DNA of 43,194 bases, taken from the IMG/VR virus record IMGVR_UViG_3300028829_004643, positions 1 through 43,194 of that record. The stretch is one strand, 5' to 3'. Numbering within the stretch: the first letter of the stretch is position 1; the number at the start of each line of letters is the position of its first letter. This stretch comes from a virus. A model generated the notes under the pieces. The model was not told the DNA's origin. It was given only the letters and a program-made list of their open reading frames with translations, and searched no databases. Below, piece after piece: positions 366 to 10,867 of this stretch. A program made the position numbers and the translations under genes.

Positions 366-384
366 ACTTGACAAGTGGTCAAGT
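366..384. promoter_or_regulatory. Candidate operator: 7-bp inverted repeat over the -35 box
   Basis: ACTTGAC, five bases, then GTCAAGT forms a perfect 7-bp inverted repeat. The left arm contains the start of the -35 hexamer and the right arm lies in the spacer, so a bound dimer would block RNA polymerase. The downstream genes are HTH/SANT-like, so autoregulation is an inference. A shorter TTGAC-7-GTCAA repeat lies at the minus-strand promoter near 2278-2294. Confidence 0.45.
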
Positions 385-396
385 TTAGAGTATAAT
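368..396 (+). promoter_or_regulatory. Sigma70 promoter for the SANT-like gene pair
   Basis: TTGACA at 368-373, 17-bp spacer, TATAAT at 391-396: perfect hexamers at ideal spacing. The first gene starts 25 bases downstream of the -10 box, after AAGGAG. Confidence 0.92.
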
Positions 397-421: not shown

Positions 422-733
422 ATGTCACAATACACAGAAAAAATGGTAGCAGAGCTAGAGCGTCAAGGTTCTTGGAACTTCGAGCAGGCAGCGGACTTCG
501 CCGCAACCCATGCTCTCACTACACGAAGCGTTATCAGCAAGATTAAGTCACTAGCAATTGCTTACACTCCAAAGGAGAAAGCACCTGCGAAAGCGGCAGG
601 CGAGCGAAAAAGCGACATCATCGCTGAAATTGCAAGAGGCTTAAAGATGAACATGGAACTCATCGAAGGGCTGAACCGCGCACCTGTATCTTCGCTGAAG
701 GAGTTGCGAAATGTACTCGCCCGAAGAGGTTGA
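422..733 (+). CDS. Small SANT/HTH-like DNA-binding protein, 103 aa
   Basis: The N-terminal half (residues 1-50) has the helical pattern of a SANT/Myb-type HTH, with a putative recognition helix reading TRSVISKIKSLAI followed by a basic Ala/Lys-rich linker. The C-terminal half ends in a short helical module (about residues 65-103). Both modules recur in the next gene, and the HTH signature recurs in the proteins at 22964 and 27033, so these look like paralogues. The ATG follows AAGGAG. It is the first gene after a perfect promoter and overlaps its neighbour by 23 bases. The regulatory role is inferred. Confidence 0.8.
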   Translation: MSQYTEKMVAELERQGSWNFEQAADFAATHALTTRSVISKIKSLAIAYTPKEKAPAKAAGERKSDIIAEIARGLKMNMELIEGLNRAPVSSLKELRNVLARRG

Positions 734-998
734 GTTTCTGCTCGAAGAGTATAATCGCCATGGAGATGTGCAACGCATCTCCGTGCTGCTCAACAAGTCG
801 CCAAGGTCGATTATTGGAAAGCTCAGCAGGCTAAAAGTGTACCGAAAGCGAGAGTACACAAACAAGGCTGGAAATACGCCAATTACAAAGCTCGAATATG
901 TAGCACGAATTGCTACGAAAATGGAAACCGACTTAGAGGGGCTAGAAAAAGCTCCGAAGAGTGTATTAGAAAAGTTAACAAACTACTTAGGGGCATAA
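711..998 (+). CDS. Small SANT/HTH-like DNA-binding protein, 95 aa
   Basis: Paralogue of the preceding gene. It opens with an acidic helix, then a signature RSIIGKLSRLKVY (residues 27-39) matching the recognition-helix position of the upstream gene, then a basic segment. The C-terminal part (EYVARIATKMETDLEGLEKAP) matches the upstream C-terminal module (IIAEIARGLKMNMELIEGLNRAP), so both proteins share a two-module plan. The start overlaps the previous gene and follows GAAGGAG seven bases upstream. Its stop codon lies inside a rho-independent terminator, ending the operon. Confidence 0.8.
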   Translation: MYSPEEVEFLLEEYNRHGDVQRISVLLNKSPRSIIGKLSRLKVYRKREYTNKAGNTPITKLEYVARIATKMETDLEGLEKAPKSVLEKLTNYLGA

Positions 999-1010
999 AG
1001 CCCCTTTTTT
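989..1010 (+). terminator. Rho-independent terminator of the left rightward operon
   Basis: AGGGGC, 5-base loop, GCCCCT, then a run of T. The stop codon of the preceding gene sits in the loop. It closes the plus-strand unit before the convergent minus-strand genes. Confidence 0.9.
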
Positions 1011-1202: not shown

Positions 1203-1259
1203 AAAAAACCTCCTTAAGAGTAGATTACATATGTTTGTAATCCAACTTGAAGGAGGTTT
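1203..1259 (-). terminator. Terminator of the minus-strand RNA unit
   Basis: On the minus strand AAACCTCCTT pairs with AAGGAGGTTT and the stem is followed by TTTTTT. The arms enclose a second perfect 7-bp hairpin (GATTACA with TGTAATC). The stem arms contain an anti-Shine-Dalgarno and a Shine-Dalgarno sequence, which may be incidental. Confidence 0.75.
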
Positions 1260-1486
1260 AGAGGTGTTCGCCACTACGTGGCGGGACTTAATTCTGTTAA
1301 AAGAAGTATATTTCTTCTCGCTCTTCGGAACTCAGAATAATTGTTACAATGGCGAACTTATGTCCCTACCCGTCTCCTCATGGAGATCCGACGGGGAAGG
1401 ACTAAACGTCGCCATATACTTATTCTTGGAGTTCCTCTCGTGAACTTAAGTTAAGAATTTATTTATTTAGACTATGCTAAATTATT
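1203..1486 (-). ncRNA. Candidate structured phage small RNA, about 284 nt
   Basis: A consensus minus-strand promoter (1493-1521) and a terminator (1203-1259) bracket a stretch with no convincing ORF but dense pairing. Stems in window coordinates: 1269-1274 with 1278-1283 (CGCCAC/GTGGCG); 1291-1296 with 1333-1338 enclosing 1302-1306 with 1314-1318; a long arm 1349-1355 with 1409-1415 (ATGGCGA/TCGCCAT) enclosing GTCC/GGAC and CCGTC/GACGG; and AGTTC/GAACT at 1430-1446. The nested perfect pairings suggest a folded RNA rather than a leader. I do not recognise a known RNA family. A 23-codon minus-strand ORF lies in the long arm but lacks a well-placed ribosome binding site. Confidence 0.65.
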
Positions 1487-1492
1487 TCATAT

Positions 1493-1521
1493 ATAATAGC
1501 AGACCGAGAGCAAAAAGTCAA
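1493..1521 (-). promoter_or_regulatory. Sigma70 promoter of the structured RNA
   Basis: On the minus strand TTGACT (1521-1516), 17-bp spacer, TATTAT (1498-1493), preceded by the AAAAAAGTTC context shared with other promoters here. Predicted start near 1486. No gene follows in this direction before the terminator at 1203. Confidence 0.82.
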
Positions 1522-1563
1522 GAACTTTTTTGACGTAGGTGAAGGACTACAAAGTACAGTACA

Positions 1564-1587
1564 GAAAAAAGCGGCCTTACGCCGCTT
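1564..1587 (-). terminator. Terminator ending the 2089-1577 operon
   Basis: On the minus strand AAGCGGC, GTAAG loop, GCCGCTT and a T run. The TAA of the last ORF lies in the loop. It separates this operon from the RNA unit. Confidence 0.88.
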
Positions 1588-1783
1588 CATAAAATACTTC
1601 CCAGTAGAGCCAGGCACCCCCGACTTGATAATTTCGACGACTTCGCGTCACCCATGTATCAGTCGATTTCCTTGCGAAAATCGTAGGTATGAGAAGCGCT
1701 TCCTCTCGACTTCTCGCTTCGATATTCTCGATAATAGTCCTCAAGCTCTCCAGTAATCTCTGCGCTCTTTGTACTACGGTCAT
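1577..1783 (-). CDS. Hypothetical protein overlapping in another frame, 68 aa
   Basis: This frame overlaps most of the 63-aa gene at 1659-1850. An internal ATG at 1783 has its own AAGGAG about 9 bases upstream, and the ORF runs to a stop inside the operon terminator. The C-terminal third is rich in Trp and Tyr and ends in EVFYEAA, which looks like real protein. No family is recognised. It could be a separate gene read from the overlapping mRNA, or the C-terminal part of the upstream gene reached by a +1 frameshift. Confidence 0.5.
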   Translation of the reverse strand: MTVVQRAQRLLESLRTIIENIEARSREEALLIPTIFARKSTDTWVTRSRRNYQVGGAWLYWEVFYEAA

Positions 1784-1850
1784 ATGCTGTTTTCTCCTTA
1801 AAAGCATAGGCTTTGTTAAATTTGTGTGCATGTTTTGCTACAAAGTTCAT
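1659..1850 (-). CDS. Hypothetical protein, 63 aa
   Basis: A small charged protein with Lys/His-rich N-terminus and a Glu/Tyr/Arg-rich helix in the middle; no family recognised. The ATG overlaps the stop of the upstream gene (ATGA) and follows GGGAG eight bases upstream, so this start is well supported. Most of its length is also open in a second frame with its own ribosome binding site. Confidence 0.65.
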   Translation of the reverse strand: MNFVAKHAHKFNKAYAFKEKTAYDRSTKSAEITGELEDYYREYRSEKSRGSASHTYDFRKEID

Positions 1851-3329: not shown

Positions 3330-3773
3330 TTAGTCCTGGGTATAAAAAATATGATCGTCAATTACTGTAGTAACCCGAAAAGACCATGACCAGTGTGGCC
3401 TTACATTTTTCGCATGATACCACAAAGCTCCTTCTGTAATGTCGAGAGGGCGTTGTTCTAGCAGATATTCAGAAAGTTTTACAGCCTTATCGTATGCAGC
3501 CTTGTCTGACACAAGCTCGCGAACTCCGTCGCAAAACCACGAGAACTGACACTTCCATCGAAGAGGAGGACTCTGTGTAGCCTGGTATACAACATCACAG
3601 ATAGTATTCGGAAACTTGCTGGACGCCACACGATTTAATGTAACATGACCCACAGCTAATTGACCCGCAACGCTTTCTCCACGACTTTCAAAGTAAATAT
3701 TCAACGCAAGACATTCGTTCGCCAATGAAAAAGGGCTCAAGAAGAGCCCTAAGATCAGTACCGCAATCTTCAT
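3330..3773 (-). CDS. SleB-type cell wall hydrolase with signal peptide, 147 aa
   Basis: The protein begins with a Lys, a hydrophobic core and an Ala-Asn cleavage region (residues 1-18), then carries the SleB/Hydrolase_2 signature: NIYFESRGES with the probable catalytic Glu at 29, VGHVTLNRV, FPNTICDVV and CQFSWFCDG. Members cleave peptidoglycan (lytic transglycosylase type), so with its export signal it is a likely endolysin or late lysis enzyme. The ATG overlaps the stop of the holin-like gene. A complete terminator structure lies inside the signal-peptide codons. A second lysozyme of a different family is at 14445. Confidence 0.85.
   Translation of the reverse strand: MKIAVLILGLFLSPFSLANECLALNIYFESRGESVAGQLAVGHVTLNRVASSKFPNTICDVVYQATQSPPLRWKCQFSWFCDGVRELVSDKAAYDKAVKLSEYLLEQRPLDITEGALWYHAKNVRPHWSWSFRVTTVIDDHIFYTQD
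3728..3750 (-). terminator. Terminator-like hairpin inside the SleB signal-peptide codons
   Basis: On the minus strand AGGGCTC, TTCTT loop, GAGCCCT followed by a T run. The 7-bp stem has no mismatch. It lies 23-45 bases into the gene and encodes residues LGLFLSPF. It could stop a share of transcripts between the holin-like gene and the hydrolase domain; ribosomes on the gene may counteract it. Confidence 0.6.
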
Positions 3774-3931
3774 TTTTCTGGAGTAAGTAACGTCCACACT
3801 CCGTAGAGCAGGCCAGCCGATGCAACTATCTTTGCGAGCTCTCCAAAGAGAATCACCGCTGCACAGCATCCACAAATAACAACACCGTCCCACGTACTTC
3901 TTTCTTCCAGTATCTTATTTAAATATTTCAT
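3770..3931 (-). CDS. Small membrane protein, holin-like, 53 aa
   Basis: A charged N-terminus ending in STWDG leads into a hydrophobic stretch with two Cys (about residues 15-30) and a second one (about 33-48), giving one long or two short membrane segments. AGGAGG precedes the ATG by four bases, and the stop overlaps the SleB start. Similar small peptides next to lysis enzymes are common in marine phages. Size, topology and position fit a holin or holin partner, but the function is inferred. Confidence 0.72.
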   Translation of the reverse strand: MKYLNKILEERSTWDGVVICGCCAAVILFGELAKIVASAGLLYGVWTLLTPEK

Positions 3932-8760: not shown

Positions 8761-9244
8761 TCTTCATACCCTCTTCTTCTGGCTCTTTTTCTGTTTCTGC
8801 CAGCCATGCGGCCTTCGCCGCGTCTCCAATAAGGCCATCTTTCGGACACGGAGTTCCCGCATCCATCATTGCATCAAATACTCTTTCGTCCTGACACATA
8901 ATACTCACTGCAGCAACTTTCATTCCCATATCATAAAGTGTTTTTGCATTTTTCAACTTTTCACAGTTCATATCTCGTACAGTTCTACCTGCCGAGATAC
9001 CTAAAATTTGGGTTTGTACTGCACCTGCTACACCCACAGTACATAAGTCACTGTTCGAATTGTTCATAGTAGGAATGATCGCGCTTGGAGGAGGCGATTT
9101 GAGAGTTGTTGTGCTAGTGCTATCTACCGTGCTCGTAGTAGTCGCTTCAGTTTTAATTGTATTTTCATCCTGAGCAAGCACCGGAAATGCTAAGAGCATT
9201 CCTAAAACTACTATAGCACATACTTTAGTTCTGTTTGCTACCAC
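8696..9244 (-). CDS. Exported, C-terminally anchored Thr-rich protein, about 182 aa
   Basis: A hydrophobic signal sequence (VLGMLLAFPVLAQ) leads to a Thr/Ser/Pro-rich linker, a region with four Cys (TVGVAG to GTPCP), an acidic linker and a C-terminal membrane anchor ending in a run of Leu. The start is uncertain: GTG at 9244, with a TTG at 9262 also possible. The C-terminal anchor codons overlap the signal peptide of the next gene in another frame. Confidence 0.68.
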   Translation of the reverse strand: MVANRTKVCAIVVLGMLLAFPVLAQDENTIKTEATTTSTVDSTSTTTLKSPPPSAIIPTMNNSNSDLCTVGVAGAVQTQILGISAGRTVRDMNCEKLKNAKTLYDMGMKVAAVSIMCQDERVFDAMMDAGTPCPKDGLIGDAAKAAWLAETEKEPEEEGMKNGTKTAIASGGIGALLLLLLL

Positions 9245-9543
9245 TTTACTTTGTCCGCCCAATAAGCTGCGCTCATTTTACCACGAGCTATATTACGCCT
9301 GTGCCTTGCTTTAAAAGAAGCTCTCTTTTTCTTCATACGATCGCTTTCTCCAGCTTTTGGTTTTCCAGCAGTCTTTGCGCCTTGTTGTCCAAAACGAATA
9401 GTCTTTACTTTGTCGCCAACTTTGGCAACAACAATGTGTGATTTCTTCGGATGTTTAGGAGTACGTCGAGGCTTGTTATATCCCGACACACGGGCTCTTG
9501 CCAGACGAGAATCTTTCTTTTTAACCCTTCTTTTTGCTGCCAC
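9238..9543 (-). CDS. Very basic conserved phage protein (DUF6321-like), 101 aa
   Basis: Lys/Arg-rich N-terminus, then VVAKVGDKVKTIRFGQQGA and KPKAGESDRMKKKRASFKAR, and a C-terminal YWADKVKW. I recognise this as a family widespread in marine phages (DUF6321 as I recall; the number should be checked). Its strong positive charge suggests nucleic-acid contact. GTG start with AGGA seven bases upstream, overlapping the previous gene by 23 bases. Confidence 0.75.
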   Translation of the reverse strand: MAAKRRVKKKDSRLARARVSGYNKPRRTPKHPKKSHIVVAKVGDKVKTIRFGQQGAKTAGKPKAGESDRMKKKRASFKARHRRNIARGKMSAAYWADKVKW

Positions 9544-9727
9544 GTTTCGTTCCTAGTCGTCGCCTCTCTGCTAACAGAGTTTTTGGCACACGCTTGCCCT
9601 CTTTATAGAGCTTTGCAATACGCTTGATGACACGGGCCAACTTCGCTCGTTTTCCACCTTTCGTACCGCTTAGGTATTTTTTATTGACTCCAGTACGCTT
9701 ATCCTTTACCGCCTTCCGTCTCTTCAT
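9521..9727 (-). CDS. Very basic conserved phage protein, 68 aa
   Basis: Almost a third Lys or Arg, with the pattern TGVNKKYLSG, RVIKRIAKLYKEGKRVP and LLAERRRLG, which I recognise as a small domain recurring in marine phages (perhaps DUF5872; not certain). The ATG at 9727 is used although a TTG directly precedes it. It overlaps both neighbours. A DNA- or RNA-binding or DNA-condensing role is inferred from charge. Confidence 0.7.
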   Translation of the reverse strand: MKRRKAVKDKRTGVNKKYLSGTKGGKRAKLARVIKRIAKLYKEGKRVPKTLLAERRRLGTKRGSKKKG

Positions 9728-9839
9728 CAAATTCTTCCCATTCTGGATGCTCGAGCGCTTTTCTCTCTAACTTTTCCAATCTTTTTAGTAACCCACTGAA
9801 CTTTTCATTGAGCTCTTCTAGTGCGAAGTCTATCTTCAT
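9699..9839 (-). CDS. Small acidic helical protein, 46 aa
   Basis: A charged amphipathic helix (LNEKFSGLLKRLEKLER) followed by an acidic tail. AGGTGG lies about six bases before the ATG, and the end overlaps the next gene by 29 bases. In contrast to its basic neighbours it is acidic, so it might partner them; that is speculation. Confidence 0.65.
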   Translation of the reverse strand: MKIDFALEELNEKFSGLLKRLEKLERKALEHPEWEEFDEETEGGKG

Positions 9840-9858
9840 CAATTCCACCTAAAGGACA

Positions 9859-9966
9859 TTACATATACGCCGCGCGCATTTTTTTCTTCTTTTTACCCTT
9901 CTTCTTCTTGCCTTTAATCATATAGGCCATCAGAGCTTTCGGTAACTTTTTCTTCTTGTGTTTCAT
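9859..9966 (-). CDS. Lys-rich micro-protein, 35 aa
   Basis: Nearly half of the residues are Lys (for example GKKKKGKKKKKMRAAYM). GAGGAAAG lies upstream, and the start makes an ATGA overlap with the preceding gene. Its composition points to nucleic-acid binding; no family can be assigned at this length. Confidence 0.65.
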   Translation of the reverse strand: MKHKKKKLPKALMAYMIKGKKKKGKKKKKMRAAYM

Positions 9967-10247
9967 TTTGCTTTCCTCTTGCGTCTAAGATCCAGATCGT
10001 GTTTCTTAGAACCACGGATGAACGAATTTACACGAGCATGAGCCCATCGGCTCATAGTCATGCCTGGTCGTGATCCGCTTGATAAAAATGCACCCTGTCC
10101 ACGTCGGTAGACTTTTTTGAGGGTTGTGAGGGACTTTCCGCTCTTCTTAGCCTTTGCAGCTAAAGATTTGTTAACAGCAGCAGAAAGGGGCTTTCTCTTG
10201 CGAGTAGCCTTTCGTTTGGTGGGGGTCTTTCTTCGTTTAACTGCCAT
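9963..10247 (-). CDS. Basic conserved phage protein (DUF5824-like), 94 aa
   Basis: A Lys/Arg-rich N-terminus (residues 1-20) is followed by LKKVYRRGQGAFLSSGSRPG and WAHARVNSFIRGSKKHD. The YRRG-x-G, RPG and W-x-x-x-R-V-N-S-F sequence is the signature I associate with DUF5824, a family spread through marine phages and large viruses. Function unknown, probably nucleic-acid associated. A run of basic proteins follows it. Confidence 0.75.
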   Translation of the reverse strand: MAVKRRKTPTKRKATRKRKPLSAAVNKSLAAKAKKSGKSLTTLKKVYRRGQGAFLSSGSRPGMTMSRWAHARVNSFIRGSKKHDLDLRRKRKAK

Positions 10248-10838: not shown

Positions 10839-10867
10839 ATTATATCAATAATAGACCAAAATGTCAA
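10839..10867 (-). promoter_or_regulatory. Sigma70 promoter of the basic/exported protein operon
   Basis: Minus strand TTGACA (10867-10862), 17 bp, TATAAT (10844-10839), with AAAAATAGTTC upstream. Confidence 0.9.

Follow-up and report, generated by a model that had tools for sequence, protein, structure and literature searches.

A predicted rod-shaped non-coding RNA at conserved loci of T5-like phages

The window analysed here, a virus record of 43,194 bases, contains between two convergent operons a stretch of 284 nt that is framed by a promoter and a terminator. Its presence raises the question of whether a structured RNA is encoded at this locus, whether it belongs to a known family and what it might do. 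The DNA polymerase encoded in the window is 41% identical to that of the T5-like Aeromonas phage AhSzq-1, and the phage also encodes a D5 regulator, an SbcCD-like nuclease, a NAD-dependent ligase and PhoH. The phage is T5-like and belongs to a lineage for whose marker, a small HTH gene, the cultured collection yielded no counterpart. A search for the HTH family among cultured phages gave no match at 1e-5 and only chance matches with E-values of 4-7, and none was found in bacterial genomes. No relatives were found for the neighbouring gene at 422-733. The features of the locus are compiled in Table 1.

Table 1. Features of the RNA locus and its flanking operons in the window.
Feature	Position	Strand	Basis
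Gene for a small HTH/D5-like DNA-binding protein, convergent neighbour and locus marker in relatives	711..998	+	
Terminator of the plus-strand operon	989..1005	+	
Predicted ncRNA transcript, 284 nt	1203..1486	-	Predicted start (about 7 nt past the -10) and predicted end
Intrinsic terminator, long interrupted stem followed by six U	1203..1259	-	Sequence and fold
Small 3' hairpin CGCCAC-GUA-GUGGCG	1269..1284	-	Fold
Small 3' hairpin	1301..1319	-	Fold
Main rod, imperfect, 41 pairs over 126 nt, longest uninterrupted helix 7 bp	~1320..1445	-	Fold
Rod apex CCCGUC-GGAUCUCCAUGAGGA-GACGGG	1369..1395	-	Sequence and fold
5' mini-hairpin	1465..1482	-	Folds
Sigma70-type promoter, TTGACT-17-TATTAT with extended -10 TG	1493..1521	-	Motif match and conservation in relatives
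A-tract and TTC immediately upstream of the -35	1522..1534	-	Recurs at other strong promoters of these phages
Terminator separating the minus-strand operon from the RNA promoter	1568..1588	-	
DUF7230 gene, upstream of the RNA promoter	1659..1850	-	

The initial annotation described an autonomous structured phage RNA, located between convergent operons and devoid of a convincing open reading frame, and this description is borne out by a conserved promoter of its own, a strong fold and the lack of a conserved ORF. The plus-strand genes end at 998 and the minus-strand genes near 1659/1577, each with a terminator, and the RNA promoter is located 497 nt downstream of the HTH gene. A plus-strand frame of 70 amino acids (1231-1443) is without counterpart in the relatives, and among 84 homologous rod regions only nine have even one of the six frames open. 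A conserved ORF had been named as a possible objection to an RNA, and none was found among the relatives.

The promoter is conserved in relatives and is retained here, but its description as near-perfect was generous. It agrees with the consensus at 10 of 12 positions and has an extended -10, and a consensus match alone is not significant, with 12 sites in 5 kb versus 8.5 +/- 3.2 expected. Its evidential value derives instead from its conservation, which amounts to 90% over 41 nt in L064 and to 72-86% in about ten further relatives, most of which share its place and orientation; the corresponding values for L002, L003 and L004 are 73-82%. Strong promoters at 368-396 (+), 2294-2266 (-) and 3322-3294 (-) exhibit the same context of an A-tract and a TTCTTGAC-like -35, and they apparently represent a promoter class that is used across the window phage and its relatives. 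The proposed terminator has arms (1206-1229 and 1236-1259) that are 79% complementary and precede TTTTTT on the minus strand. Its stem contains, on the minus strand, UAAGGAGGU, a nine-base perfect complement of the usual 3' end of 16S rRNA, which was not seen conserved in relatives.

The predicted minus-strand RNA has a minimum free energy (MFE) of -92.9 compared with -57.9 +/- 4.9 for shuffled sequences (z -7.17), a value reached by none of 200 shuffles; the plus strand of the unit has a z-score of -5.90. The long arm that had been proposed at 1349-1415 is real, but it is not perfect (26 nt, 77% complementary) and it forms only the tip of the longer rod given in Table 1, whose largest internal loop measures about 4 x 8 nt. 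A GGA-rich apex as in the window rod is common among relatives, and a small 5' hairpin occurs at the matching position in individual folds of several relatives and of coliphage T5.

More than 400 relatives of the HTH gene were found among viral contigs, and at nearly all of these loci with enough sequence a promoter faces the gene from downstream and is followed by a structured non-coding stretch. The folds of 89 non-redundant units, taken as the 220 nt past the promoter, have a mean z-score of -3.65, with 77 of them below -2, whereas 55 other strong promoters on the same strand, which served as a control, gave a mean of -1.35. The automatic choice of promoters took a secondary site inside the RNA in about ten units (e.g., L047, L049, L065 and L170), which weakens the z-scores rather than inflating them. 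When the two strands are compared by z-score, the better fold is that of the minus strand in 64 of 84 units; raw MFE alone favours the plus strand in 64 of 89 because the minus strand is A-rich in composition, and this preference is reversed by the z-scores. The marine rods span about 98 nt with a median of 34 pairs, and their longest uninterrupted helix has a median of 9 bp and a maximum of 15. The apex takes one of two forms: some rods end in a GGAAUUAAAGGA-type loop of 12 nt, others in an internal loop of purines that is closed off by a mini-hairpin of the GCGUAAGC type. Rod length, interruptions every 6-10 bp and the GGA/GA-rich apex persist while the sequence drifts freely.

In six relatives a SleB-like cell wall hydrolase gene separates the RNA from the HTH gene (L002, L003, L004, L007, L034 and L062), and the window harbors a similar gene at 3330-3893 on the minus strand. 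Downstream of the RNA, near the end of the hydrolase gene, L004, L002 and L007 have a conserved minus-strand segment, AGCCGAACAGGTGGACCGGCCCCGC. On the upstream side, a bS21 gene is found on the same strand within 1.5 kb in 49 of 84 units (e.g., L075:5958-6191, L110:4826-5053 and L149:5555-5779), and the DUF7230 gene of the window recurs upstream of the RNA in L062. The frequency of bS21, which has been reported as a component of the OLE RNA complex (PMC12054373), brings up the idea that the RNA is the ribonucleoprotein partner of a small basic protein encoded upstream (bS21 or, in the window, DUF7230) and possibly acts on translation. We consider this improbable, given that 27 of the 84 marine units have neither gene nearby, that the T5 unit described below lacks both, and that the RNA has its own promoter.

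Compensatory substitutions in related phages, an earlier suggested check of the stems, proved to be abundant in three alignments of relatives. In alignment A3 (17 members, MAFFT) 97.6% of the cells are paired and seven pairs have changed on both sides, in a total of 34 cells. None of 500 shuffles reached the paired fraction, the number of two-sided changes or the covariation score, and pairing drops to 31-41% when the partner is slid by one to three columns. The independent subgroup A6 (n=11) has two-sided changes in eight of 29 pairs. The larger alignment A5 (36 members), which was fitted to the structure, has them in 31 of 37 pairs with 93.2% of the cells pairing. Among single mismatches in columns with a Watson-Crick majority, read on the minus strand, GU exceeds AC by 40 to 12 in A5 and A6, on which this count rests (A7, with a mis-sized structure string, was ignored), and GU-free folds gave 42 versus 24 cells. 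This excess is expected of an RNA from the minus strand. A mixed alignment of 23 sequences yielded only a weak RNAalifold signal because it was misaligned, and the subgroups were used instead.

A covariance model built from one marine subgroup (R1) matched the RNA locus, on the RNA strand and once per genome, in all 38 loci that it reached; the window, L064 and T5 (1-50 kb) were not reached. An R1 match with an E-value of 0.0013 in the L002 genome fell within a gene for a nuclease and was a false positive; R1 E-values near 1e-3 therefore carry little weight unless synteny backs them. From promoter, fold and covariation we conclude that the unit very probably is a structured non-coding RNA. Its constant position at the convergent junction in the marine loci would also suit a spacer without function in trans, whose strong antisense transcription and hairpins would only insulate the two operons. 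This explanation has a low probability, because the window already possesses separate terminators on both sides, and because a terminator would require neither the long-range covariation of the rod nor its conservation as a single copy in T5-like genera.

The presence of a comparable unit in a cultured phage was revealed by a search of T5 (1-50 kb) for rods located behind a strong promoter, in which a 56-pair rod behind a minus-strand promoter ending at 10850 was the one outlier and the next best rod had 21 pairs. The T5 unit (L189; AY543070, 10640-10900, minus strand; fold z -6.06) is not annotated and lies between the left terminal repeat, which ends at 10219, and T5.018; its predicted transcript would start at about 10843 and end at about 10630. 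It is present in 138 phages, mostly unannotated, and in 13 aligned examples all rod pairs are kept, three of them with two-sided changes. Homologues of T5.018 lead to Klebsiella phages and to a second coli/Salmonella group, which have the unit at the same place, with the same type of promoter and the same first nucleotides, and mostly with different rods (z -2.2 to -5.2). The cultured T5-like phages thus resemble the marine ones in that place and shape persist while the sequence turns over. The annotated stable RNAs of T5 (RNAI, RNAIII, RNAIV, RNA1, RNA2, RNA2H, RNA3 and RNAX; AY543070) are likewise non-coding RNAs without assigned function, but they are located at 30-41 kb in the tRNA cluster and not beside the terminal repeat, and RNAI, RNAIII, RNAIV, RNA1 and RNA2 have z-scores of only -0.7 to -2.9 and branched or tRNA-like folds.

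The first RNA nucleotides common to T5-like phages, AACUCUAUGAG, are shared despite the differing rods, and within the marine groups conservation is higher in the 5' leader than in the rod. Both observations would agree with a base-pairing regulatory sRNA, whose single-stranded 5' part (e.g., GUCAAUACAAACUACC in one marine group) pairs with host or phage mRNAs and is stabilised by the rod. Such an sRNA nevertheless appears unlikely to us: the leader differs between groups, the rod as the largest part is what selection keeps, and the shared first nucleotides may merely serve the promoter.

The location of the T5 unit 0.4-0.6 kb outside the terminal repeat and near the injection stop signal, in a region known for inverted repeats (PMC13250531), brings up a cis element whose inverted repeat would act as DNA in halting or initiating DNA transfer, in duplicating the terminal repeat or in replication, with incidental transcription. 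The unit lies, however, outside the annotated signal (9140-10149), and the marine units are not known to adjoin a terminal repeat; the orientation of the promoter and the bias of GU over AC indicate a minus-strand RNA. We therefore rate a DNA element as distinctly unlikely.

Homologues of the T5 pre-early genes 011-017 and of T5.018 are absent from the marine loci, and no neighbouring gene is common to both. The T5 and marine units are linked by architecture and setting rather than by sequence or neighbouring genes, so their descent from one ancestor is no more than plausible. The class as a whole is defined across subgroups by place and shape. The copy in the window is convergent to the HTH gene, has the conserved extended -10 promoter and shows a mini-hairpin followed by a rod, whose 41 pairs are within the class range of about 25-58 bp. 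No close sequence relative of this rod was found by blastn of cultured phages or with the promoter-spacer pattern. Synteny, promoter conservation and architecture, rather than rod sequence, lead us to infer that the window copy belongs to the class; the covariation accordingly is evidence for the class and bears on the window copy only through this assignment. Blastn of the entire window unit among cultured phages gave no match, and the promoter-spacer pattern retrieved known relatives only. The pattern GATTTTGGCAACAAAGTC occurs at four true loci; its seven other matches are unrelated and lack a promoter-rod unit.

The earlier impression that the RNA is not a member of a known family also stands. 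Rfam 15 gave no match in the whole window at the gathering threshold, and relaxed searches gave chance-level matches only (E up to 10 for the window, L047 and L002; E up to 5 for T5). The phi29 pRNA, GOLLD and ROOL are structured RNAs of phages or prophages as well, but they differ in size and architecture and no Rfam match links them to the rod RNA. The 6S RNA is a stable rod-like bacterial RNA, and an interrupted rod that would be expected early in infection could in principle act as a 6S or promoter-DNA mimic that sequesters the host RNA polymerase. This possibility is very remote, as the large symmetric central bubble of 6S RNA is absent from the folds of the window and T5 and no Rfam 6S match was obtained even at relaxed thresholds.

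A counterpart in mode of action may be the adenovirus VA RNA I, a eukaryotic RNA polymerase III product that targets PKR and serves as a decoy by virtue of its shape. It resembles the rod RNA as a short viral RNA with a long imperfect stem and a fast-changing sequence, and the comparison concerns the way of working and claims no relationship. We tentatively propose that the rod RNA, too, may be a decoy or scaffold that is recognised by its shape and binds protein, and we rank a protein-binding role above a base-pairing sRNA as the most likely function. The host RNA polymerase would transcribe the RNA from its strong promoter, and the 5' mini-hairpin together with the terminator or terminal hairpin would protect its ends, allowing a stable RNA of about 200-300 nt to accumulate. 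The rod would then be recognised by shape, because its sequence drifts freely while length, interruptions and apex persist, although DNA elements or rapidly evolving sRNAs could drift in the same way. The RNA would bind a protein of the host or the phage as a decoy or as the scaffold of a ribonucleoprotein, comparable to the occupation of PKR by VA RNAs. The helices may be kept too short for efficient cleavage by RNase III, given that their lengths (see the marine rods above) predict a poor substrate, which would suit a binding platform or decoy.

Taken as a whole, the statement that the unit belongs to an undescribed class of ncRNA in T5-like phages and is stable, read by shape and protein-binding has in our estimation somewhat less than an even chance of being right. 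A more far-reaching version, according to which an ancient and fast-evolving rod RNA of T5-like phages blocks a host protein by its shape, as a counterpart of VA RNA that has remained unannotated in T5, appears doubtful to us.

The case that the rod RNA represents a real and hitherto undescribed class of phage ncRNA is strong, and no report of it was found in the open-access literature. Structured ncRNAs supported by covariation are few in lytic phages, and the rod RNA is found at one spot in many uncultured marine phages. Because T5, which has served as a laboratory model since the 1940s, possesses a similarly designed unit, the question can already be put to the test: E. coli K-12 is a host for T5 and for its relatives from the BASEL collection (TrudiGerster and GreteKellenberger), and RNA-seq data taken at 20 min from the T5-like phage Bas33 are public (ENA PRJEB101990; PMC13250531). 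The persistence of the rod's shape while its sequence changes suggests that the target is a protein engaged in an arms race.
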